Positions 1-15,098 of a DNA stretch of 25,538 nt are shown here, piece after piece; the stretch's first letter is position 1, and every line of letters starts with the position of its first letter. Source of the stretch: a virus; IMG/VR virus record IMGVR_UViG_3300017963_000707, positions 1 through 25,538 of that record; one strand, written 5' to 3'. Below the pieces are notes generated by a model. That model saw only the letters and a program-made list of their open reading frames with translations. It had not been told where the DNA came from and searched no databases. The position numbers and the translations under genes were made by a program.

Positions 1-141
1 ATACCAAAGGACCCAATCCGGCGCGTACTCGTCCTCGATGGCATCCTCCCACGTTGCGTATTTTTCCACACGCTCCAGGTCCTGCCTGCACGCCCCGGCC
101 GCCCGTGCTTTTTCCACCAGTTCCTTTAAGTTAGGCTTCAT
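1..141 (-). CDS. Small conserved phage protein, C-terminus cut by window edge
   Basis: The visible part starts MKPNLKELVEKARAAGACRQ and runs 47 residues to the window edge, ending in an acidic stretch followed by DWVLWY. The order of a short helical N-terminus, an AGAC element and a D-W-x-L-W element resembles a widespread small phage protein family of unknown function; that is recollection, not a search result. The start is the ATG at 141. It is preceded by a strong GGAGGAAAG Shine-Dalgarno site that lies inside the last codons of the upstream nuclease gene, and the two genes overlap by 11 bases, so they are probably translationally coupled. It would be the most downstream gene of the leftward operon visible here. 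No catalytic motif can be seen. Confidence 0.6.
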   Translation of the reverse strand, partial: MKPNLKELVEKARAAGACRQDLERVEKYATWEDAIEDEYAPDWVLWY

Positions 142-631
142 GCTTTCCTCCCAGCATTTCACAATGTTTTGCAAATCGGTTTATATTAGTCCAAATTTTG
201 CCACGCTTGAACAGGTAAAATATACATCGTGGACAATGATCGTGAGATGTGAAATAATCGTCAATGTTGGCGCTTACGGAAATAATAAATTTTTCCGTAA
301 AAAAACCATGATACATCTTGCAATGATATAAGTCAAGAACTATTGCGATATCTTTGCAAACTTGCGTAATGAGAAACACTCGCCCACCTGCATCACAAAT
401 GGCCCTCATGTTTGCTCGCTGCAAGGCTGTTGCAGCCCGCAGTAAGTCCTTTTGTTTATTTACATGGTTTATTTTCACCTCAGCTAAAAACGCTTGCGAA
501 CGGTTGACTACAAATAAATCAGGTCGCCCGGCGGTGGCAGCAGTGCCCCGCAATTTCCATATTAACGTGTGTTGGTCGTCATGTTGCCATGATCGTTTTA
601 ATTCGTTGACGAACTTTGTTTCAGGCTTCAT
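131..631 (-). CDS. PD-(D/E)XK nuclease (VRR-NUC / Hjc-like)
   Basis: This 166-residue protein has the core of the PD-(D/E)XK fold: an acidic N-terminal helix (E4, E10), then G35-R-P-D38 followed by a hydrophobic strand, then E51-V-K53. A Q/K-rich helix and a strand (RVFLIT, near 84-89) follow, as in VRR-NUC and archaeal Hjc-type resolvases. By family knowledge it would be a metal-dependent structure-specific or DNA-trimming nuclease acting in replication or recombination. The C-terminal third, with HCPRC near 130-136, is not recognised. The start at 631 has an AGGAGG site about six bases upstream. It sits downstream of the primase-helicase with a roughly 200-base structured spacer between them. 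Nuclease fold assignment is fairly sure; the substrate is inference. Confidence 0.75.
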   Translation of the reverse strand: MKPETKFVNELKRSWQHDDQHTLIWKLRGTAATAGRPDLFVVNRSQAFLAEVKINHVNKQKDLLRAATALQRANMRAICDAGGRVFLITQVCKDIAIVLDLYHCKMYHGFFTEKFIISVSANIDDYFTSHDHCPRCIFYLFKRGKIWTNINRFAKHCEMLGGKHEA

Positions 632-828: not shown

Positions 829-3606
829 TTAATTTCCATTTTCCAACTCCTTTTGTATTTCAATCAACAATTGTGTAAATCGTGGCGTCTTGCGGTATGT
901 TGTGTTTGGTTTGCGCAACGCCCGGTTTTTTCTTAAAAAACTTAAAAGTTCTTTCGCATCCTGCCTGTCACCGTTTACCCAGTCTTCCGCGTCATTTAAT
1001 TGAATGTATCCCTTGCCCAGCATTTCACCAACTGAATTGGCGCCCAATGCTCTTACTTTTTGCTTTACTTCCAACTCGTTATCAATTGTATTTTGTTTAA
1101 ATTGATGGTTACTGTAAATATCATAGCCCATAGATTTTTTAACGAACGACGCAACAAGCACGTTATATGCTGCTTCAATATGTTTATCATTTACAATTAT
1201 CTCATCACCGGTTTTGGTGGAAAACACCATACCGGCAATAGCAACAGATATCCTGGCAAGTTTAATGCGCTGCTCACTCGGTTCGACGAGCGGGATTGAC
1301 GCGTGAAACTTTTTGGCCAACTCCGTCGCGCTCCACAAAACCAGCTTTTCAGCGTCATTAGTAAATATCACCTGTTCCGGTTGTCTGGACCATATCCACC
1401 GTACACGGTTGGAGCATGCATCCCGGTTATATTTATGCGTTACTTCACTGCGTTTTAATTGGTTAATCTGTTCTGGTTTTATTTCGTCACTTGCCAACGT
1501 TACAACAAAATCAAACCGGGCTATGTCTTCTGCTTTACCTATCAGATCGCGTACGGCATGGATGCCCATTGAATATTCACTTACAGTTAAATTCTTTCGC
1601 GGGTTGCTCATGATGACAAGTCGAACCCTTGACATTGTTTTCTCAGTTTGTATTTTGGTTATTTCAGCAACGCCACTTGCCCGGATACCCGACAGCCGTT
1701 CAATCTCCTCAGTGCGCATACCTGAAAACTCGTCTAGGATTACCAATCCGCCGTCATTTAGTGGTAACTTCCCCCACGCAATCATTTTACGGTTGCCGAC
1801 AATATTGATACCGCCGACAAGCCCTGCATAACTTAAATTTTCAGCACCCACCATTTCACCCGCCCTGAAGTGTGATTGAATAGCAAATGCGGTGTCAGAT
1901 TTGCCACAACGCGTGTCACCCAGTATAAGCGTTTCAACCCATCCGCGCCGTACATCTTTGTTTTGAAATTTAAACCGCAACGCGCTATGATACGCCAGGT
2001 CGAAAGCCATCAACATGTCATTACGACCGTAAATGAATGTTACATTTTCACTTAAATCAGTATGAATTTCTTCGATTTTATCGAGAATACCTTGTCCTTT
2101 TTCTGGTTTAAATATCTGTAATTGATCCATAACATCTTTAGTTAGGTTGAAATTCTCGATGGCAGATACAGTCGGTTCAGCCTGTTGCGCCAGGTGCACA
2201 ACATGGTGTGTTGCCGGGTGCGGTGTTGTGTGTCCTGTGAATCTATAAGGCCGGTTGGTTTCGGCTATTCCGTCCACCAGTATCGCACGCCTCGACACAT
2301 AAGGTCTACCAATTTCGCTCTCGAAATTAATGTCAGGTATCAACATTAAGTCCTCGACGTTCTGGCTTGATAATGTCTCTGCTCCCCACGAGGTGCATTT
2401 AGATGGAATGTCCGCCATGCGGCGATACACGCCACGCGCCTGAAATTGTGAACATCCTACTACTTGTAAAATTTCCGGATCATACGGACCTATATCTATT
2501 TCGACACTGCCGGTGTCGATCAGCCCGCAAACATTACATAGCTTCACGGTGGTAGCCGACTGGCAGAACACCTTTACGCGTTTAGGAATTAAATATGGCT
2601 CAGTATCTTTTCCTGCCACAATAGCAATGAAACGCTGTTTCACTGAAGCGTTTACGGCCATCGACGCATCTTCAAGATTCATATCTACAGGCTCCATTTT
2701 GGCAATACGCTCCCGTTCTTTAACCGATGGCACATACAGATCAGTGTTATCAATTAACTTTTTCAAGTCGTCAGCTGTTGCGCCTTGTTTTATATAATCG
2801 GTTAAGTCGCCGTTTTCAGGTTCTTCAATTGGTAATTTTACATTCTTTACTTCAGGGCAAATGCGAGATAAAAACCGTACAACCTTGTTTGCAGCCTTCA
2901 CCCCAACATCATCAACGTCAAATATCACGGCTATTTTTTTATCCAAAAGCGCCGACAAATTGTCCGGCTTTAACGAACCGGCGCCGCCCGTGAACGCTGC
3001 CGCATTAAATCCTAATTGTTGTGCAAGTATCGTGTCAGGTTCACCCTCACATAATAATATAAAATCGCCGGTCAGTGCGTTTGCAGGAAACAGGTCCATG
3101 CGTGTGCCCAGTCCCTTAGCCCAACTCATAAATTTTGCATTACCTTTTTTCGCAACGTCATACAGGCGAATATTTAAAAGAATGTTATCACGGCTGTAAA
3201 TTGGTATAGTTATGTAATTATTTTTTAAACCAAGCTTGAAATTTTTAATAGTTGTTTTATTCCATTTACGATGCGTTTTTAAATAATCAACTGCCTTTTC
3301 GTTTTTCAATAGCGCCTTGTGTGCCTTTTCAACGTCCGCCTCAGTCGGCGCGTTTGACGGGCGGCCTGACTTTTTAGGTGTATCTGATTTCTTCGGCTTG
3401 TTAGGTAATAATCCACGCTCTTTTAAAAAATTGTATGCGTTGCCGCCCCTGCCGCAACTGAAACATTTAAACCGTGTACGTTCCTTGAATACGGTTAAAT
3501 TAGGCGTGTTTTTATCGTCGTGGAAAGGACAAAAAGCACGAACAATATCACCCATTTTTTTGGGCCGGTCCAAGTGGTGATCTTCGATAATATACTTATC
3601 AGACAT
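829..3606 (-). CDS. Primase-helicase: DnaG-like CHC2/TOPRIM primase fused to MCM-like AAA+ motor
   Basis: The 925-residue protein begins with a CHC2 zinc finger (C26-x2-H29 ... C48-x2-C51), then a TOPRIM domain with LLCEGEPD at 184-191 (E187, D191) and IFDVDDVG at 228-235 (D230, D232). A middle region (about 300-480) with C348, C357 and C360 could be an MCM-like OB/zinc domain. The motor has Walker A GDTRCGKS (563-570), Walker B GGLVILDEF (619-627), sensor-1 N668 and ARFDF (R697), which corresponds to the MCM SRFD arginine finger. Order and wording match MCM better than DnaB/RecA-type gp4 helicases. It should make primers and unwind the fork. The ATG at 3606 has GAGG six bases upstream. The front half is certain; the MCM label rests on motif resemblance. 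Confidence 0.85.
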   Translation of the reverse strand: MSDKYIIEDHHLDRPKKMGDIVRAFCPFHDDKNTPNLTVFKERTRFKCFSCGRGGNAYNFLKERGLLPNKPKKSDTPKKSGRPSNAPTEADVEKAHKALLKNEKAVDYLKTHRKWNKTTIKNFKLGLKNNYITIPIYSRDNILLNIRLYDVAKKGNAKFMSWAKGLGTRMDLFPANALTGDFILLCEGEPDTILAQQLGFNAAAFTGGAGSLKPDNLSALLDKKIAVIFDVDDVGVKAANKVVRFLSRICPEVKNVKLPIEEPENGDLTDYIKQGATADDLKKLIDNTDLYVPSVKERERIAKMEPVDMNLEDASMAVNASVKQRFIAIVAGKDTEPYLIPKRVKVFCQSATTVKLCNVCGLIDTGSVEIDIGPYDPEILQVVGCSQFQARGVYRRMADIPSKCTSWGAETLSSQNVEDLMLIPDINFESEIGRPYVSRRAILVDGIAETNRPYRFTGHTTPHPATHHVVHLAQQAEPTVSAIENFNLTKDVMDQLQIFKPEKGQGILDKIEEIHTDLSENVTFIYGRNDMLMAFDLAYHSALRFKFQNKDVRRGWVETLILGDTRCGKSDTAFAIQSHFRAGEMVGAENLSYAGLVGGINIVGNRKMIAWGKLPLNDGGLVILDEFSGMRTEEIERLSGIRASGVAEITKIQTEKTMSRVRLVIMSNPRKNLTVSEYSMGIHAVRDLIGKAEDIARFDFVVTLASDEIKPEQINQLKRSEVTHKYNRDACSNRVRWIWSRQPEQVIFTNDAEKLVLWSATELAKKFHASIPLVEPSEQRIKLARISVAIAGMVFSTKTGDEIIVNDKHIEAAYNVLVASFVKKSMGYDIYSNHQFKQNTIDNELEVKQKVRALGANSVGEMLGKGYIQLNDAEDWVNGDRQDAKELLSFLRKNRALRKPNTTYRKTPRFTQLLIEIQKELENGN

Positions 3607-3663: not shown

Positions 3664-4461
3664 TTATTTAAATGATTCAGTATCAAAAGAATCGTCTGAG
3701 ATTTTATCAGGCGACTCGTCAAAGTCCTGTGCCACGATGCCTTTGTTGTATGCGGATTTTATCATCGTGTAAATATCAGCATAGGCCTCAAGGTTCGAGT
3801 TTAGTCCGGCAGGACGTACCGTGTAAATGTAGAATTTTCCCTTGTCATTCTTGATGTATTCTTTGCCGATTTCATATTTAGCATAACACCACGGCATGCC
3901 AGGTTTAGATGTTGCTAAAGTTATAAGCTGTTGTCCTGTTTTATAACTCGATTTCATCATTGTTATAACGAATGGGATGGAGTTTTCAGGGTCGTCGTCG
4001 GCGAAAAGCGAAATGAACTCATGTACTGCTCTACACCTCGGTGGTTCGTTGTTCACCCAGCTCGCTGCATAATTGTACTCACACTCGTTACATGTGCCGT
4101 ACATCCTACCGGTTTTTCCATCACGAGAACTGCACTCTACTGGGTCGCCAGGCTCGTCAGGGAAAAGAACGGCAGCTTTGTTGTAAAATAATGGTATGAT
4201 GGTAATCGGCGCTTCATAGGTTTTCATTGTGATGTTGTTTAAAAACTGTCCTGGTCTTGGCGCTGTTTTGTCTTCTGGATCAACACATTTCGACATCTCC
4301 TGAACGATACCTACCCTGGCTAAGATGATGTCTGATGTGTCGACATTTTCCATGCCAGCAGCTACACCACTTTTGTCCGGCTTAAACACGTCCGGCAACT
4401 GGTCTGTTGTTATTTTTGCTATAGCCGTTTCTTTGGTTGTTTTCTTTCCGTTTTTAGACAT
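3664..4461 (-). CDS. Probable phage ssDNA-binding protein with Cys4 zinc site
   Basis: The 265-residue protein has a disordered lysine-rich N-terminus, a central four-cysteine set (C110, then C124-x2-C127, then C143) that could bind zinc, beta-rich flanking segments, and an acidic C-terminal tail (about 246-264) ending close to a phenylalanine. An acidic, Phe-containing tail is typical of SSB-type proteins, where it recruits partners. The position directly upstream of the primase-helicase fits such a role. I recall similar Cys-containing proteins beside phage primases but cannot verify a family. The start at 4461 follows a GGGAGG site, and the preceding gene stops 11 bases upstream. A recombination mediator is an alternative. 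Confidence 0.45.
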   Translation of the reverse strand: MSKNGKKTTKETAIAKITTDQLPDVFKPDKSGVAAGMENVDTSDIILARVGIVQEMSKCVDPEDKTAPRPGQFLNNITMKTYEAPITIIPLFYNKAAVLFPDEPGDPVECSSRDGKTGRMYGTCNECEYNYAASWVNNEPPRCRAVHEFISLFADDDPENSIPFVITMMKSSYKTGQQLITLATSKPGMPWCYAKYEIGKEYIKNDKGKFYIYTVRPAGLNSNLEAYADIYTMIKSAYNKGIVAQDFDESPDKISDDSFDTESFK

Positions 4462-5726: not shown

Positions 5727-5914
5727 ATTTGCCTCCTGGGTGGTATTATCCAACTGTTCTTAATCGTTATTTTCCACTCTGGGTTTATTTCAATTATTAC
5801 ATGATTTTTGCGCACCTCAACTATAGTACCGGTAGTTTTTAAACCGCGAATGTTGCCATAAATAGATTCGTCAGGTACTTGAAATTGTACATGTTCGTTT
5901 TTAAAGCAGTACAT
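5723..5914 (-). CDS. Small beta-rich hypothetical protein
   Basis: Sixty-three residues starting MYCFKNEHVQFQVPD. The segment GTIVEVRKNHVIIEINPEW (near 29-47) alternates hydrophobic and charged residues around a turn, like an SH3 or KOW-type barrel that could bind nucleic acid. Three ATG codons lie in tandem (5920, 5917, 5914). GGGAGG at 5926-5921 is directly abutting the first and six bases from the third, so the third is chosen. The Shine-Dalgarno site and start lie within the last codons of the SNF2 helicase gene (14-base overlap). Function unknown. Confidence 0.6.
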   Translation of the reverse strand: MYCFKNEHVQFQVPDESIYGNIRGLKTTGTIVEVRKNHVIIEINPEWKITIKNSWIIPPRRQI

Positions 5915-7346
5915 CATCATCCTCCCATTCGTCTAAGTCATGTTTTTTTATATTTACGCCCAACACGTCTTTTATCATGTTGGCAATCTCACCTTTTTTA
6001 TGTATGCTGTTAAGTATTTTTTCATCGATAGTTTTCGCGGCAATTATATCAACAATTGTTACCGATCTCGTCTGTCCTATCCTGTGTGCTCTGGCTTCAG
6101 CTTGTACCCTGTCGCCGTACCTGTAATTATTTGAAACGAATATCATAGCCGTGGCGCGTTGTAGGTTTATGCCAGTGCCTAGAGATTGTGGGTTGGCGAT
6201 TAACACGTCTGACTTGCCGTTTAAAAAAACGTTCGCAGCTGTAATGTGTTGACCTTCGGTATGTTTCGAACTGACCGCCACACCCATTTTTTGCAACTCA
6301 ACAGTTAATTGTATTAGCTCATAATCAAACACCGTCCAGATAACGCACTGTCTACCACTCAGGTCGCCGGTGGTTAATAATTCCACAACGGTTTTGCGTT
6401 TGGTGTTGCCAACTTCATGGACCTGTTTCTTACCTATAATTTTTTCGTAATATGAAAAACCGCAACTAGCTTGCGCCATTTTTGTTATTTTAGCTAATGC
6501 ATTTGTTATAGGCATATATTCGTTTGTGCCAACATCCATCAACGCTTCTTTTTTAATCAGTTCGTAATGACGATGTTCATTTTGATTTAAACTCACGAAT
6601 CGCTGTTGATAGATTTTTGGTGGCAAGTCAATTGCAACATCTTCTTTCTTGATAGATACAACATATGGCTTTATTCGATCTAGTAAATGGTCGGTACGTT
6701 TATACCCTACAATCTGTTTTCCTTCAAATCCACCCATTACAGCATAACGGTTGCGAAACGCCCACCAGCTTTCTGGTAGGATGTTTTCATCTACAAATCT
6801 TATCTGTGAGTATAAATCCATCGGACCGTGTAAAATCGGTGTGCCGGTTAACGCATATCCTATCTTAGCACGTCGGCGCATTTCGTGAGCGGCTTTAGTA
6901 CGCTTTGCCTTAAAATTTTTAATATATGCGCTTTCGTCGGCAATTACTGCATATAGGTGCAGTTTGTTTTTTTTCAACCACTCAACGATTTCAACTGCCT
7001 GCTCGTAATTAATAAGTAATATCGTAGGCCCATACCGTAAGCCGTTTAGTGCTACTTCTCTTTTTGCTCTACGCTTGCGTGCAGACAGGCCGACAGTTGA
7101 ATAGATATTTATATCAGGCCGCCACTGCTCAGCCTCATTTAACCAAGTTAAATGGGCGCTGATTGGACACATAACAACATTCAGACATCGAGTAAGTGGA
7201 ATGCATTCATAAACCGAACGAGTTTTCCCCAAGCCCATCTCTAAAAACATGGCAAGGGACTTTTCACGTCCACGCGTGACGCATTCGAGTTGATGAGGGT
7301 ATAATGGTTTATTTTCCACGATTGTTTTTTCTTGATAGTCGTGCAA
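5901..7346 (-). CDS. SNF2-family DEAD/DEAH-like helicase or translocase
   Basis: This 481-residue superfamily 2 ATPase has Walker A MGLGKT at 37-42, Walker B/DExH-type ADES at 136-139, motif III LTGTP at 166-170, and in the second RecA lobe motif V GTGINLQ (390-396) and motif VI QAEARAHRIGQ (415-425). The last motif, with HRIGQ, is the SNF2 signature. Such phage proteins translocate on dsDNA; roles in replication, recombination or clearing proteins from DNA are proposed, but this one's is inferred. Length is short for SNF2, essentially a bare motor. The frame begins with TTG at 7346 without a clear ribosome site and overlaps the upstream gene by 38 bases; GTG at 7319 is an alternative that leaves all motifs intact. 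Confidence 0.85.
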   Translation of the reverse strand: MHDYQEKTIVENKPLYPHQLECVTRGREKSLAMFLEMGLGKTRSVYECIPLTRCLNVVMCPISAHLTWLNEAEQWRPDINIYSTVGLSARKRRAKREVALNGLRYGPTILLINYEQAVEIVEWLKKNKLHLYAVIADESAYIKNFKAKRTKAAHEMRRRAKIGYALTGTPILHGPMDLYSQIRFVDENILPESWWAFRNRYAVMGGFEGKQIVGYKRTDHLLDRIKPYVVSIKKEDVAIDLPPKIYQQRFVSLNQNEHRHYELIKKEALMDVGTNEYMPITNALAKITKMAQASCGFSYYEKIIGKKQVHEVGNTKRKTVVELLTTGDLSGRQCVIWTVFDYELIQLTVELQKMGVAVSSKHTEGQHITAANVFLNGKSDVLIANPQSLGTGINLQRATAMIFVSNNYRYGDRVQAEARAHRIGQTRSVTIVDIIAAKTIDEKILNSIHKKGEIANMIKDVLGVNIKKHDLDEWEDDDVLL

Positions 7347-7908: not shown

Positions 7909-7931
7909 GGTTTTCTCCTTTTTTTTTTAAA

Positions 7932-8195
7932 TTAAGCCATCATGAAACTGCCATCGGCTTCATCGATTATCATCATCCTGAAATTAAAGCCGATGAAATT
8001 CCTGAATTCTTCGCACTTCTTGCCAAGAATCCAACAAGCCACTTTCGTAAAATCCACGCCCGCCTCGATCTGGCTCTTCGGCAGCCAGGTCTTGAAGGTC
8101 TTGGTGGCGCCGGTCGGCGTGATGTACGGGATTTCGGCCTGGATTGCTTTTTCGGTTTCGCGGATTTTGTTGATTTTGAGGCTGATCATTTCCAT
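7932..8195 (-). CDS. Small conserved protein (WLPKSQ-type)
   Basis: Eighty-seven residues starting MEMISLKINKIRETEKAIQA. It contains TWLPKSQIEAG (near 36-46) followed by a helix, WILGKKCEE. Short proteins with a K-A-x-x-h N-terminal strand and a W-[IL]-P-K-S motif occur in phages, plasmids and chromosomes, without known function; this is recollection. The ATG at 8195 has GGAG eight bases upstream, inside the end of the regulator gene. Several other frames are open across this stretch, but only this one has a ribosome site and a family-like motif. GC content is raised as in the next gene. Confidence 0.6.
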   Translation of the reverse strand: MEMISLKINKIRETEKAIQAEIPYITPTGATKTFKTWLPKSQIEAGVDFTKVACWILGKKCEEFRNFIGFNFRMMIIDEADGSFMMA

Positions 8196-8392
8196 TTTCT
8201 TTCTCCTTTTTCCAAGAGCTTGTCCAGCTCCACACCTAAAGCATCCGCTATCTTTTGCGCTGTTTCTACCATCATACCCTTTTCGCCGTTTTCATAAGCA
8301 GAAATGGCGCTTTGTGCAATGCCGGCGCGTGCTCCAAGTTCGAGCTGCGACCATCTTTTTAGTTCGCGGTAGTGTTTGATCCTGTTTTTCAA
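8186..8392 (-). CDS. XRE-family transcriptional regulator
   Basis: From the TTG at 8392 the 68-residue product begins (M)KNRIKHYRELKRWSQLELG, the usual start of a single-domain Cro/cI-like XRE repressor. The HTH spans roughly 13-36 (SQLELGARAGIAQSAISAYE) and is followed by the TAQKIADALGVELDKLLE tail typical of the family. The frame is open to a GTG at 8419, but that has no ribosome site, whereas AAGGAG (8404-8409) lies 11 bases before the TTG. It is the first gene of the leftward early operon. A palindrome overlapping the promoter just upstream suggests autorepression. It could be the lysogeny repressor or a Cro-like early regulator. Confidence 0.8.
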   Translation of the reverse strand: MKNRIKHYRELKRWSQLELGARAGIAQSAISAYENGEKGMMVETAQKIADALGVELDKLLEKGERKWK

Positions 8393-8438
8393 TTGTTTTT
8401 CATCTCCTTCTTTTTTCACTATATACGTTAAATGATAC

Positions 8439-8458
8439 TATGATAATATACTATCATA
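8439..8458. promoter_or_regulatory. Operator-like palindrome
   Basis: TATGATA (8439-8445), six bases, TATCATA (8452-8458): perfect seven-bp arms with dyad symmetry. A further ATGATA copy lies at 8432-8437, eight bases from the first arm. The site covers the -10 hexamer and part of the spacer of the leftward promoter, 17 or more bases upstream of the XRE gene, so binding of that regulator would block RNA polymerase. Binding itself is inferred. Confidence 0.6.
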
Positions 8459-8471
8459 TATAGCCTGTCAA
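8443..8471 (-). promoter_or_regulatory. Sigma70-like leftward early promoter
   Basis: On the minus strand, consensus -35 TTGACA (8471-8466), a 17-base spacer and -10 TATTAT (8448-8443) predict a transcript start near 8436. This would drive the whole leftward operon. It is the best promoter match in the window. Confidence 0.7.
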
Positions 8472-8553
8472 TGGGGTGCGGTAGAAAAAATGCGGGAAAA
8501 TGCGAAATAAATGAAAAGTGTAATAAAATCAGGCAGTTAGGTTGTGGGGTGGT

Positions 8554-8679
8554 TTACTGAATGTCGGATAAAATAGCCTTTTTACCGGTGAATTCCTCCC
8601 ACCGGCGGACAGCAGGGTCGGGTTTTATCTTCGACATTTTGATTTTCAAATGTTCTAAATGTTTATTGATTTTGGTCAC
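8554..8679 (-). CDS. MicroORF after radical SAM gene; resembles methyltransferase C-terminal tail
   Basis: A 41-codon frame starts at GTG 8679, overlapping the radical SAM stop in a GTGA junction; an internal ATG at 8637 gives 27 residues starting MSKIKPDPAVRRWEEFTG. The AVRRWEEFTGKKA segment strongly resembles the extreme C-terminus of phage DNA methyltransferases of the N4/N6 type (from memory), here without the rest of the enzyme. It may be a remnant of a deleted methylase gene, or an independent microprotein. No good Shine-Dalgarno site is seen (GAGG lies 13 bases before the GTG). The coding stretch is enclosed by a hairpin, so it could also be chance coding in a structured element. Confidence 0.4.
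   Translation of the reverse strand: MTKINKHLEHLKIKMSKIKPDPAVRRWEEFTGKKAILSDIQ
8560..8638. repeat. Nested inverted repeat around the microORF
   Basis: AATGTCG (8560-8566) pairs with CGACATT (8632-8638), and GATAAAA (8567-8573) with TTTTATC (8623-8629), giving 14 bp with a two-base bulge. Inside, CCGGTG (8585-8590) pairs with CACCGG (8600-8605) around a nine-base loop that reads GGAGGAATT on the minus strand. Function unknown; no U-tract follows in either direction, so a simple terminator is unlikely. Confidence 0.5.
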
Positions 8680-9920
8680 TTGGATTTAAAAACCTCATCA
8701 AATCCTTCTTTCACCGTCCATAACTGCTCGGCCGTCATCTGCTCGCTCACAATAATTGGTCTATCTTTTACTGCCCCAAAATCCGAGTTGAAGCGTGACC
8801 AGTCACAAACCTTTTGTGTCGATGCACGTTTTTGCCAACCCTCTTTTTTCCACTTTTTCCACAGCGGAGTACCGGGATAAGGTATAATTAAGTATGCCTC
8901 ACCTGTTATTATTCTCACATCTGCCGCAAGCGCGATGCTCTCCATCGCCTGCTCATATGTTTCCTCTGGCGCACCATAAACAAACGAGGCCACTACATTT
9001 ATATTGTAGTCATTAAGTAATTTAATCGCTTTTAAATTATCCTTTACATGCGCCTTTGGGCCTTTTAAGTATTTCAAGATTTCATCATTCCCACTCTCGA
9101 GGCCCATTGCCACGTTCCTTACTCCGATTTTTTTCAGCAACTTCACAGTATCTTTATCTAAAATCGAGGCGCGAGCTAAACACGAAAACTCAATATCACC
9201 GTTTTTTATAACAGTATCGTCTCTTATTAGTTCATAGATTTTTTGCAGTCTGCTTTTATTAAAAGCGAATAAGTCATCATAAATATTTATAGCGCTCACA
9301 CCCTGTTCCTTCACCAAACGCTTTATCTCACTCACAACATGCTCAGGTGAATGGAACCTCACGCCGTGCCAAAAATTACAACTTGAACAAAATACGCAAT
9401 CAAACGGACAACCCCGACTCGTCATTATATGAGCTTCTTTATTAAATAATTGGCCTGCATATCGTATAGGCGGTTTCAGTTCGTCGAGATTCTCAACAGG
9501 CCGCCCTTCCCAGTAATTTGAATGATTTCTGATGTCGCCTATTTTAATTGTGTGTAATATTTCATTAAATGTTTTTTCACCCTCACCAATAACTTTAAAG
9601 ATTCCATCGGGAACCGATTCGGGACAATGTGTTACATGGTGACCACCCATAACAATAGGTGCATTTGTTGCCCCCTGAATAGCCTCAATAATTTTTAATG
9701 CAATGTTGAAGTTCTGAGTTACACTGGTTATACCAACTACTTCGGGCCTCAACCCCCGCACGTATTTTGCAACTTCAGGACCACCTCGTAATATCATTAT
9801 TTCTGGGTTTAAATTTTTAGGAATATTCGCAGCAAGATAGGCCAGGCTCAATGGTGGATAACGAGTTTCCACACCGTCACCGCGTGATACATTTATAGTT
9901 TCAATAAGTAGAATTCGCAT
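8676..9920 (-). CDS. B12-binding-domain radical SAM protein
   Basis: From the ATG at 9920 the 414-residue protein begins MRILLIETINV with a Rossmann-like N-terminal domain (about 1-130), including RYPPLSLAYLAA, typical of cobalamin-binding radical SAM enzymes. The cluster motif C171-x3-C175-x2-C178 (SRGCPFDCVFC) follows, then the radical SAM barrel with GLESGN near 269-274. The classical B12 DxHxxG motif is not evident, as in many members. Family members methylate or rearrange varied substrates; this one's substrate cannot be told. The frame is open to 10082, but a promoter-like element at 9928-9956 argues for the inner start. It stands apart from both operons and looks like an accessory (moron) gene. 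A phage-encoded copy is unusual. Confidence 0.8.
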   Translation of the reverse strand: MRILLIETINVSRGDGVETRYPPLSLAYLAANIPKNLNPEIMILRGGPEVAKYVRGLRPEVVGITSVTQNFNIALKIIEAIQGATNAPIVMGGHHVTHCPESVPDGIFKVIGEGEKTFNEILHTIKIGDIRNHSNYWEGRPVENLDELKPPIRYAGQLFNKEAHIMTSRGCPFDCVFCSSCNFWHGVRFHSPEHVVSEIKRLVKEQGVSAINIYDDLFAFNKSRLQKIYELIRDDTVIKNGDIEFSCLARASILDKDTVKLLKKIGVRNVAMGLESGNDEILKYLKGPKAHVKDNLKAIKLLNDYNINVVASFVYGAPEETYEQAMESIALAADVRIITGEAYLIIPYPGTPLWKKWKKEGWQKRASTQKVCDWSRFNSDFGAVKDRPIIVSEQMTAEQLWTVKEGFDEVFKSK

Positions 9921-9927
9921 ATGACCA

Positions 9928-9956
9928 AGAATAGCACAACTATTAAATGTTTGCAA
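9928..9956 (-). promoter_or_regulatory. Possible promoter of radical SAM gene, near-leaderless
   Basis: Minus-strand TTGCAA (9956-9951), 17 bases, TATTCT (9933-9928). The expected start point falls at or next to the ATG at 9920, so the transcript would be leaderless or almost so, consistent with the lack of a Shine-Dalgarno site. A small palindrome AATAG-N5-CTATT (9930-9944) overlaps the -10 and could be an operator. Confidence 0.35.
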
Positions 9957-10538
9957 AATATAGGTACCCTTCGAAATGTTGCAAAAATACCACGGTCGGA
10001 AAATAAACCAAAATCGTGATTTTTTAAAATTCGTCAAATGGCCCAAATCGGCCGTTTTTAGGGCTACCTTTACTTCTAACATATAATTTTGCTTAATTTA
10101 GACATGATAGGTCTACATTAAAATACACGTACTATATGTATTGTTTCTCTACCGGCGAGTAATTTAAATAGAAAAAAGTGCCTAAATCCAGTGAAACCAA
10201 AAAAGTCGATTGCTGTAAGTGGTTGATTTTATTACACCTGATTCAAAAAAAAAAAAAAAGGGGGTAGTAAGGGGGGGGTACATTATAAAAATAAATAAAT
10301 AAATTACGTTTTACTATAAGAATTATAATTAATTAAATATTTTTGGGAGTGCCCCCCCCCTCCAGGTAAGCCGGTTTTTTTTTTAATTCTTAAAATTATT
10401 ATGAAAATTATACAATAGGTATTGTTATTTTTAATTAATTTTAAAAAACAGGGAATGACCCTCTAAAAATATTTACTATTATTTTTTTTATTTTAAATAA
10501 GTGTGGCAAAAAAAATGTTTTTATGTTAAATTGAAAAC
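9957..10538. other. Intergenic region between the two arms, no convincing gene
   Basis: Very AT-rich stretch with an (AAAT)n run near 10288-10303, several TTAATTAA-like palindromes, and the homopolymer inverted repeat listed separately. Short open frames here lack ribosome sites and protein-like composition. TAGAC-N7-GTCTA near 10099-10115 is a small additional inverted repeat. No clear promoter for the rightward operon could be picked out. Plausible roles are replication origin, packaging site and promoter region. Confidence 0.5.
10245..10384. repeat. Homopolymer-tract inverted repeat (A15/G5/G8 ... C9/T10)
   Basis: A15 (10245-10259) and G5 (10260-10264) are followed by G8-TAC (10271-10281); downstream GTG-C9 (10349-10360) and T10 (10375-10384) complement them in reverse order. 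G8TAC pairs with GTGC8 over 11 bp with one G-T wobble, and the A and T tracts could extend the stem outward. The loop of about 67 bases is almost all A and T. It lies about 155 bases before terS. Confidence 0.6.
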
Positions 10539-11060
10539 ATGACGGATAAAAAACAACGAAAAACACGGAAGGCAGGACCAGGCCGACCGGTAGGATCGAA
10601 GAATTCATCAATCCGAGGACAAGCAATAGATATGTCATTAACAGAACTAGACAGGGTAGATCATGCCATGCTTCGCTTTGAACAAGGGGAACCTACCGTA
10701 TCTAATAAAGCCATTCAAGAAAAACTAGGGATACCAGAGCGCCAGGTATCTAAACGACGTAAACGCGACATTTATCAACAGGCATTAATTGAATTACATA
10801 AAACACACACCCAAGTCTTGAGGGACGGAAAGGTTAGGGCGGCAAGGAGGCTTGTCGCATTGATCGATGATTCAAGCCCTTCGATCGCACTTGCCGCGTC
10901 AAAGGCGCTATTACAATCTGACTTAGCAAGAACTATTAACTTACATTTACAAGGCGGGAAGCTCGAAGAGAAAATAGATACAATGTCTGTTGATGAGCTA
11001 GAGGAATTCATCAAGACAGGAACACTCGGACTCCCCGACGGTAAGCTAAACAATGATTGA
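10539..11060 (+). CDS. Terminase small subunit (putative)
   Basis: The 173-residue protein starts MTDKKQRKTRKAGPGRPVGS, a basic tail with the GRPVGSKN element seen at the N-terminus of many small terminases. A helix-turn-helix-like segment lies near 54-76 (NKAIQEKLGIPERQVSKRRK), followed by helical oligomerisation segments. It would recognise the packaging site and load the large subunit. The gene is directly upstream of terL and overlaps it by eight bases, which is the strongest support. No Shine-Dalgarno site precedes the ATG, so initiation may be leaderless or the start imprecise. Sequence alone would not prove TerS. Confidence 0.65.
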   Translation: MTDKKQRKTRKAGPGRPVGSKNSSIRGQAIDMSLTELDRVDHAMLRFEQGEPTVSNKAIQEKLGIPERQVSKRRKRDIYQQALIELHKTHTQVLRDGKVRAARRLVALIDDSSPSIALAASKALLQSDLARTINLHLQGGKLEEKIDTMSVDELEEFIKTGTLGLPDGKLNND

Positions 11061-12487: not shown

Positions 12488-13048
12488 ATGATTGAGTGTA
12501 AGCCAAGCGAAGGAATGCCAGGATTGTATAACGCAGTGTTACGCCACTGGCAGCGCGTGACCAACAACGAGGAGAATTTAACAATCCTAGACTTAGGTTG
12601 CGGCGATTGCCAATTTATAGTTGAAATAATCGGCGAACGTGGTATGCATAACACAGGTGTACGGTACGGTATCGATGCGATTGCAGACCGTGTTAGACCG
12701 GGCTATGATTTACGGCGATTAGATTCTTACATAGTAGGCAACGCAATAGATTATATTTACAAATTCAAAGCAAACTCATTTGACGTTATTTTCCTTTTTG
12801 ATTTCCTCGAGCATCTGGACAAACAAGATGGGTGGGACTTGATAAGTGAAATGAAGCGAGTTGCCCATTATGGTATCGTCATGGAAGGTCCTGAAGGAGT
12901 TTGTATCCGCCCCGGCCCTGAATATCTTGGACACGTGTCACACTGGACTGCTGAAGAAATAGCAGACCGTGGTTTTGATGTTGAGGTATTCGATATGTTT
13001 CATGGCGATTGCAGTGCAATGGTCGCGTCGTACAAAAAGGATAGGTAA
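12488..13048 (+). CDS. Class I SAM-dependent methyltransferase
   Basis: The 186-residue protein carries motif I ILDLGCGD (33-40), the acidic residue ending strand 2 in YGIDAI (D63), and FDVIFLFDFLEHL (98-110), where the family usually has the post-strand-4 loop. It resembles methyltransferase_11/23-type small-molecule or sugar methylases more than DNA methylases, since no DPPY or PC motif is present. The start follows GGAGGG, located in the end of terL. Lying in a cassette with a glycosyltransferase, it may modify a glycan, a nucleotide or a virion protein; the substrate is unknown. Confidence 0.8.
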   Translation: MIECKPSEGMPGLYNAVLRHWQRVTNNEENLTILDLGCGDCQFIVEIIGERGMHNTGVRYGIDAIADRVRPGYDLRRLDSYIVGNAIDYIYKFKANSFDVIFLFDFLEHLDKQDGWDLISEMKRVAHYGIVMEGPEGVCIRPGPEYLGHVSHWTAEEIADRGFDVEVFDMFHGDCSAMVASYKKDR

Positions 13049-13705: not shown

Positions 13706-13974
13706 TTGACCAAAAAAAGCAATCGTCTATTAATCAAATGCATGAACTTGCGGTAACAGCACACAAACGTCTTAATTATCTGAGCGAGATAAAAGAATGG
13801 CTTGATGGTTTTGCATTAGTGATGGAGAAGTCAGCGCAAGATGGCGCGATTATTGACAACACAGTTCGTGAAAAAGTGGATAAAATGAAAACGCGCTGTA
13901 CTGAGATGATAATTGAAGATGCTGAAGAACTATTACAATACGATATTTATGGTGGGGTTAAATGGCAGGCATAA
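13702..13974 (+). CDS. Small helical hypothetical protein
   Basis: Ninety residues starting MIDQKKQSSINQMHELAVTA, nearly all predicted helix with hydrophobic heptads, so probably a coiled coil. Its ATG overlaps the endolysin stop (ATGA), and its 3' end overlaps the glycosyltransferase start by 13 bases. The frame extends upstream to 13618, but that part would lie inside the endolysin gene and has an Arg/Pro-rich non-protein look. No membrane helix or lipobox is present, so a spanin role is not supported. Function unknown. Confidence 0.6.
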   Translation: MIDQKKQSSINQMHELAVTAHKRLNYLSEIKEWLDGFALVMEKSAQDGAIIDNTVREKVDKMKTRCTEMIIEDAEELLQYDIYGGVKWQA

Positions 13975-15098
13975 AAACACATGTGCCTGAAGGCATGGAC
14001 AGGCCGTTACGTGTGTTGCATGTGTCTGCCGATACGTTTGGTTGCGGGTTTTATAGATGCTTCATGCCAAGTTATTTTATGATGGAGCAGGGACTTTGTG
14101 AAACAAGGATTTCGGGCAGTGGTGGTGCGACGAAACGTGAACATATCGAATGGGCGGACGTTGTTGTGTTTCAACGTATAATGGAGCCAATAAACGATGC
14201 ATGGGCCGCCGCACATTTTTTAGGTAAAAAGATCGTTGCGGAGAATGATGATTGGTACGAGAAGGTCCCCGGCAAGAGCGTGGCGAAAAGACATTTTCCA
14301 AATAAAATACTAGCGGGTATAAACAAGTCAATGAGCATAGCTGATGGTTTAACTGTAACAACCGATACATTAAAAAAAGCATATGGTAAATTTGGCGTGC
14401 CAGTTTATGTAATACCGAACGCAATGGATACAATGGTCGATTATCAATATCCGTACAGATTACCTCATCAGTCATTTGTTATAGGCTACCACGGTAGTGC
14501 AACTCATAGCGTTGATTTTGTTGGCGCCCGGGATGCGATAATCGACATCATGAAAGAATATCCACATGTTAGAATTCATGCACTGGGATATTTCCATCAA
14601 GACATTATAAACAAGTTTCCAGATCGCGTAATTGTGAGGCCGTGGGTAAACCTAAGTGAGTTTTTTAACGAGATAAGAATGTTAAATGCACATGTTGGAT
14701 TAGCGCCGATTGACGATATACCTTTTAACCACGCCAAAAGTAACTTAAAATGCATCGAATATGGATTGATACGCCGCCCGTGGATCGCGTCTAAAGTCGG
14801 CCCCTATGTTGATATAACTAAAAAAAGCGGTGGTGGTTTACTGGTTAAAAACAAATATCGAGATTGGTATCGGGCATTAAAAACTGTAATTGAAATGCAC
14901 CCCAACAGCCTCGAGGAAATGGGCCTTAAGGCTCGCAAATACGTTGAAGTGAATTATAATATTCGCATTATTGCGGAAATGTGGTATAATGCATTATTGA
15001 GAGTTCATAATGAACCTGCAAACCCAAGAAGGGCGCAAGCATTCCGAAAAGTCATGATGACAATAAATGAAGAAGTAAAGTTTAATCAGATTGTGTGA
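13962..15098 (+). CDS. GT-B fold glycosyltransferase
   Basis: The 378-residue protein has a GT4-like layout. The N-terminal Rossmann domain starts RVLHVSADTFGCGFYR (17-32) with a glycine-rich acceptor-side loop. The linker region has IPNAMD (151-156), then the second domain opens IGYHGSATHSVD (174-185), and the nucleotide-sugar site is near APIDDIPFNHAKSN...CIEYG (248-268), where E266 matches the EX7E-type region. Such enzymes transfer a sugar from a nucleotide donor. In phages the acceptor can be DNA, capsid or host surface glycan; the paired methyltransferase suggests glycan tailoring, but this is inference. The ATG at 13962 follows GGTGGGGTT. Confidence 0.75.
   Translation: MAGIKTHVPEGMDRPLRVLHVSADTFGCGFYRCFMPSYFMMEQGLCETRISGSGGATKREHIEWADVVVFQRIMEPINDAWAAAHFLGKKIVAENDDWYEKVPGKSVAKRHFPNKILAGINKSMSIADGLTVTTDTLKKAYGKFGVPVYVIPNAMDTMVDYQYPYRLPHQSFVIGYHGSATHSVDFVGARDAIIDIMKEYPHVRIHALGYFHQDIINKFPDRVIVRPWVNLSEFFNEIRMLNAHVGLAPIDDIPFNHAKSNLKCIEYGLIRRPWIASKVGPYVDITKKSGGGLLVKNKYRDWYRALKTVIEMHPNSLEEMGLKARKYVEVNYNIRIIAEMWYNALLRVHNEPANPRRAQAFRKVMMTINEEVKFNQIV

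Follow-up and report, generated by a model that had tools for sequence, protein, structure and literature searches.

The fusion gene and its surroundings

The window analyzed here, the whole 25,538-nucleotide stretch (25.5 kb) of IMG/VR virus record IMGVR_UViG_3300017963_000707, derives from a tailed phage; its right-hand side carries terminase, portal, and SU10-type capsid genes, and its left-hand side a minus-strand replication module. The gene at issue occupies positions 829..3606 on the minus strand; it begins with an ATG at the 3606 end and specifies a protein of 925 amino acids (P0001), and a plus-strand reading of 829-3606 meets stops throughout. Judged by its open reading frame, translation, Pfam matches, and homologues, the whole gene encodes a DnaG-type primase joined to an MCM-type helicase. 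We consider it very probable that this fusion is the phage's primase-helicase, in which a DnaG-type primase (CHC2 and TOPRIM) stands ahead of an MCM helicase (OB/zinc domain, AAA+ motor, and C-terminal helices). Sequence comparison and structural modelling support the domain identities, the intact catalytic residues, the MCM-specific elements of the motor, and the OB/zinc tier, and the matches to CHC2, Toprim_2, and PF00493 each exceed their own curated Pfam cut-offs. The original prediction, which had proposed a bacterial-type primase coupled to an MCM-like motor in a self-contained replisome, was largely right in its interpretation, and needs correction on two points: the gene lies on the minus strand, and the fusion is not a singleton, dozens of phage genomes carrying it.

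Directly upstream of the fusion, at 3664..4461 on the same strand, is a gene for a Pam3_gp34-like protein (PF23977, E 5e-23); a gene for a SNF2-type helicase, recognized by Pfam, is found farther upstream at 5901..7346 (minus strand). A gp34-like homologue precedes the fusion on the same strand in 13 of the 13 related loci where one is detectable, and in the closest six it is 13-67 bases off; the SNF2 helicase is likewise upstream, on the same strand, in all 49 loci where it can be detected. The gp34-like protein has several cysteines, and it may be the phage's ssDNA-binding protein; in two other relatives (L008 and L011), the annotation of a gene just upstream of the fusion reads single-stranded DNA-binding protein. 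Downstream, positions 131-631 (minus strand) encode a small protein with a GRPDLFVV...FLAEVK stretch that resembles a VRR-NUC or PD-(D/E)XK nuclease, with weak PHROG matches to helicase and endonuclease families. Other genes of the window include one for a B12-binding radical SAM protein (8676-10082, minus strand; no PHROG match), perhaps with a role in auxiliary metabolism or in modification, and methyltransferase and glycosyltransferase genes (12488-13048 and 13962-15098, plus strand) between terminase and portal. In the Bacillus and Weizmannia relatives L002, L006, and L011, a queuosine-type cassette (QueC/D/E, GTP cyclohydrolase) adjoins the fusion.

A DnaB_C helicase was found in none of the 57 records that carry the motor, and a polymerase was found in 52 of them (PolA in 24, DnaE in a different 28); most of these virus records may be incomplete, although seven are genomes of deposited phages that are given as complete. 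In both BSP7 and Youna2, two ORFs share the PolA match. No family-A polymerase was found within the 25.5 kb window, so the replisome of this phage is incomplete in view. Taken together, the lack of DnaB, the phage-encoded polymerases, and the conserved synteny make the fusion the strongest candidate for the two roles of primase and replicative helicase. Mobile elements commonly encode initiator helicases, sometimes with a primase attached (PMC7581432), and the winged-helix-like C-terminal end of the fusion could recognize an origin; the protein might then be an initiator or restart helicase, its MCM ring opening the origin before host DnaB takes over. We regard such a role as unlikely, since the relatives look like phages with a self-sufficient fork: they bring a polymerase, a SNF2 helicase, and nuclease modules of their own, and they encode no DnaB. 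The model, moreover, leaves no room between TOPRIM and the OB fold for the helicase-binding C-terminal domain of DnaG, so that the primase would have no obvious route to the host DnaB.

The primase half

That the front half is DnaG-like, as originally proposed, is borne out by profile, structure-database, and residue-level comparisons. The CHC2 zinc ribbon (residues 16-63; 3418..3561, minus strand; PF01807, E 2.1e-12) retains a complete set of ligands, C26, H29, C48, and C51, and the DnaG chains 2au3 and 1d0q of the PDB match this region. The TOPRIM catalytic core (residues 185-271; 2794..3054, minus strand; Pfam Toprim_2, E 1e-4) contains E189, D230, and D232, which all 58 aligned fusions share; the CHC2 cysteines are kept in nearly all of the 58. 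Against TIGR01391, the equivalog for full-length cellular DnaG, the protein scores 76.7 bits and the cut-off is 283.6, a limit that defines cellular DnaG and not the wider DnaG-like group; we therefore describe the primase as phage DnaG-like rather than as a cellular DnaG. When N-terminal profiles were compared, the protein matched the DnaG profile only, leaving the archaeal/eukaryotic-type (AEP) profile unmatched.

The primase half might be inactive or serve only to bind template, with host DnaG or RNA polymerase doing the priming. The first study of BcMCM, the AEP-MCM fusion of a Bacillus cereus prophage (McGeoch & Bell 2005; Samuels 2009; Sanchez-Berrondo 2012; reviewed in PMC4538821), did not detect priming, and one 45.8 kb record (L087) has the motor and no CHC2 primase, from which it follows that the motor can exist without one. 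We nonetheless judge this possibility improbable, because a dead domain would be expected to drift, and the TOPRIM and CHC2 residues have not. The early negative result with BcMCM, a protein for which primase activity has since been reviewed alongside it (PMC4538821), also indicates that a fused primase can look silent.

The motor and the OB/zinc tier

The AAA+ core of the motor spans residues 518-712 (1471..2055; PF00493, E 4e-8); this and the following elements all lie on the minus strand. The four motifs quoted in the original prediction are present in the translation, where GDTRCGKS forms Walker A (residues 563-570, 1897..1920), GGLVILDEF falls at residues 619-627 and includes the Walker B motif VILDEF (residues 622-627, 1726..1743) with catalytic E626, IMSNPR forms sensor 1 (residues 665-670, 1597..1614), and ARFDF carries the Arg finger (residues 696-700, 1507..1521). 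In the 58-sequence alignment, K569, E626, N668, and R697 are invariant (58/58). DSSP assignment of the model places a pair of strands, 598-603 and 606-611 (1774..1815), between helices 593-597 and 613-616, at the position of the MCM helix-2 insert, and a pre-sensor-1 beta hairpin, 646-650 and 654-658 (1633..1671), ahead of the sensor-1 strand 662-667; both segments are aligned in the PDB match to MCM2. At the C terminus, DSSP, HHalign, and VIA point to a helical domain (residues 840-925, 832..1089) that replaces the MCM winged helix.

Since the PF00493 profile also matches in 14 of 14 control genomes, bacteria included, we place the MCM identity on profile searches of the PDB, on HHalign, and on structure. 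A profile built from eight motor halves gave 68 matches among PDB sequences (best E 3e-13); the best 60 of the 68 are all MCM, and the matches listed are to MCM2-9 or archaeal MCM. HHalign comparison of the 58 fusions with five archaeal-virus MCMs returned a probability of 99.2% (E 6e-20) over an alignment that extends to the C terminus. The AlphaFold2 model of the fusion, built from the 58-sequence alignment (pLDDT 89.2), superimposes by VIA on the SsoMCM-DNA structure 6mii with a Z of 30.7 over 459 residues (model residues 300-830); all 50 of the structural matches listed for the full model are MCM, and the alignment to 7w1y_E extends to fusion residue 915. The proposal that the motor is of the MCM type thus holds, although three observations count against it: identity to cellular MCM is low in the structural alignments, at about 13-18%, the Walker A sequence departs from the usual MCM wording, and none of the Pfam families MCM_OB, MCM_lid, and MCM_N was matched by sequence.

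The motor could instead be an MCM-like AAA+ of the DUF927/Cch type (SCCmec), as in gp22 of Faecalibacterium phage FP_Epona, and not a canonical MCM. Fusions of DnaG, DUF927, and a Cch HTH do exist, FP_Epona being the case in point, and DUF927/Cch helicases have been termed MCM-like (PMC5862659, PMC7581432). This we think very unlikely and have rejected: neither DUF927 (PF06048) nor the Cch HTH matches the fusion at E<=0.1, and the FP_Epona control scored 7.5e-55 for DUF927; the Pfam families listed for 50 members of the fusion family include neither of the two; and a tblastn search of FP_Epona with the fusion protein aligns the front part only, residues 16-433. Two further motors were considered and rejected, D5/SF3, which has no Pfam match in the protein at E<=0.1, and the RecA-fold DnaB_C, which is absent from the protein at the same threshold and from the whole window record. 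The groups that the original prediction had named as competitors for the motor are therefore unmatched, and the helix-2-insert strands and pre-sensor-1 hairpin, which it had also named, are in the model.

Between the primase and the motor lies the cysteine-containing sequence that had been thought a possible MCM-type OB/zinc domain (residues 300-486; 2149..2709, minus strand), an assignment that modelling and cysteine conservation now favor. Modelled in isolation, these residues give a pLDDT of 94.1, and each match listed by Foldseek and VIA is an MCM N-terminal domain (Z 11-13). C348, C357, and C360 are present in 57 of 58 sequences; C404 is aligned in 49 of the 58 and displaced by one column in eight more. 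One locus (L094) lacks all four cysteines jointly, and a probable C4 zinc site is the simplest reading of the four. Because HHalign of the OB domain by itself against archaeal-virus MCM was not significant, the OB assignment is one of structure prediction. The structural alignment begins at about MCM residue 60-66, corresponding to about model residue 298, with the TOPRIM domain lying before it, and the helical subdomain A that usually precedes the OB fold, an accessory and not a defining part of MCM, is mostly missing from the model. The OB/zinc tier has therefore been kept and most of subdomain A is absent; in the predicted structure, the primase occupies its place.

Spread, primase exchange, and comparison with known systems

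The search for homologues with both halves, recommended in the original prediction, found some 85 other loci with the same domain order, their identity being roughly 27-38% across almost the full length. Deposited phages account for 60 records with a match at E<=1e-5; in 46 of these, which belong to the loci just counted, 80% or more of the length is covered. They are mostly Microbacterium phages, with Bacillus, Weizmannia, and Arthrobacter phages and an uncultured siphovirus also represented, and a Paenibacillus phage matches too, with 79% covered. When viral contigs were scanned, the family alignment recovered 171 relatives, of which 80 were kept; the alignment was needed as query, the single protein having given only one weak locus. 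By N-terminal profile, 86 of 98 motor ORFs (a set that includes the window's own and some near-duplicates) are DnaG-fronted and seven are AEP-fronted, the remainder being truncated, split, or stand-alone. That the fusion is an artefact of chimeric assembly or of two genes adjoining by chance is scarcely credible: the window is a fragment of a virus contig and not an isolate genome, but the same fusion recurs in the loci just described, including isolate phages sequenced as complete genomes.

Two loci depart from the common arrangement. L087 encodes a stand-alone OB/zinc and MCM motor of 622 amino acids (7974-9842), and its record encodes its own PolA. In L088 the fusion is split between OB and AAA+ into two overlapping frames (7917-9473 and 9467-10747), either naturally or through a sequencing error.

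The same OB/zinc and AAA+ half is also found behind a primase of the PriS type (PF01896), in the p3 plasmid record of B. velezensis (L009) and in the Bacillus phage BboS-125 (L012), and Paenibacillus/Brevibacillus contigs carry the same PriS-first arrangement. The homology of L009 and L012 to the window's protein starts near residue 309, where the primase ends, and runs to about residue 910, with motors that are 30-31% identical; L090 has a second, divergent AEP front. Because one OB/zinc and AAA+ half carries either kind of primase, comparison of the DnaG- and AEP-fronted sequences shows that the primase has been exchanged at one fixed boundary. In an unrooted tree of the motors, the AEP label needs two changes. 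When the tree is rooted on archaeal-virus MCM, the well-supported branches force no more than one change, with a root branch of about 6 changes per column.

Eukaryotic replisomes suggest how such a protein might work, as they hold the catalytic subunit of primase on the MCM N-tier, above the exit of the lagging strand between the zinc-finger domains (PMC10501992). By analogy with MCM and BcMCM biochemistry, the fusion would form a ring, most likely a homohexamer, that moves 3'-5' on the leading-strand template. A primase tethered at the N terminus would then lie outside the zinc-finger tier, close to where the excluded lagging strand emerges, as the replisome structures suggest; the ring would be on the leading template and the primase on the excluded strand. 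There, CHC2 would capture template and TOPRIM would make RNA primers for the phage polymerase. The geometry would be opposite to that of T7 gp4 or DnaB-DnaG, whose ring runs 5'-3' on the strand that is primed. On balance, and with real reservations, we favor the view that a TOPRIM primase has replaced subdomain A and primes the excluded strand beside a 3'-5' ring, and that the same MCM half has acquired the non-homologous DnaG and AEP primases at one fixed junction, in at least one exchange and probably in two.

MCM is usually paired with primases of the archaeal/eukaryotic type, and DnaG with DnaB. A large phage family mixes DnaG and MCM in a single chain, and the same motor can bear either an AEP or a DnaG front. 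The family offers a compact, single-gene system for two questions: by what route a primase gains access to the excluded strand next to an MCM ring, and whether one primase chemistry can stand in for another on a shared helicase. Annotation can be sharpened as well: PHROG 18685, of unknown function, matches residues 320-914, the motor half (phrog_18685, E 2e-92), and dozens of deposited relatives generally go by the name "DNA primase" or "DNA primase/helicase."

AEP-fronted primase-MCM fusions are already known (PMC5862659, PMC4538821), and in the open literature, as far as our incomplete coverage of it extends, we found no description of a DnaG front on a canonical MCM. The closest characterized protein is BcMCM, which is reported to unwind DNA 3'-5' and to act both as primase and as polymerase (PMC4538821); it too carries its primase ahead of an MCM motor, and it differs in that fronts of the BcMCM type are PriS-type AEP (PF01896) where ours is DnaG CHC2/TOPRIM. 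L009 and L012 are likely its relatives and putative orthologues. Phage "DNA primase/helicase" proteins, those of Krampusvirus and of others (Hiddenleaf gp48, BSP7, Youna2, Wollypog, and API480), have the same DnaG-TOPRIM-OB/zinc-MCM order throughout; they are only 22-29% identical to the window's protein, and their records do not say DnaG-MCM. FP_Epona gp22 (L010, 5926-8682), annotated "DnaG primase - MCM-like helicase," likewise joins a DnaG front to an AAA+ motor, but that motor belongs to DUF927, not to PF00493, and ends in a Cch HTH. T7 gp4, with its zinc ribbon and TOPRIM front, and Twinkle resemble the fusion as one-chain primase-helicases; they differ in having a RecA-fold 5'-3' motor, of the kind for which our protein has no DnaB_C match. 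Finally, cellular MCM and CMG, working with Pol alpha-primase, share the OB/zinc tier and the MCM AAA+ motor, and in CMG the primase is positioned on the outer side of the N-tier (PMC10501992), but their primase is a separate AEP recruited by protein contacts, and their MCM retains the subdomain A whose place the phage primase appears to have taken.
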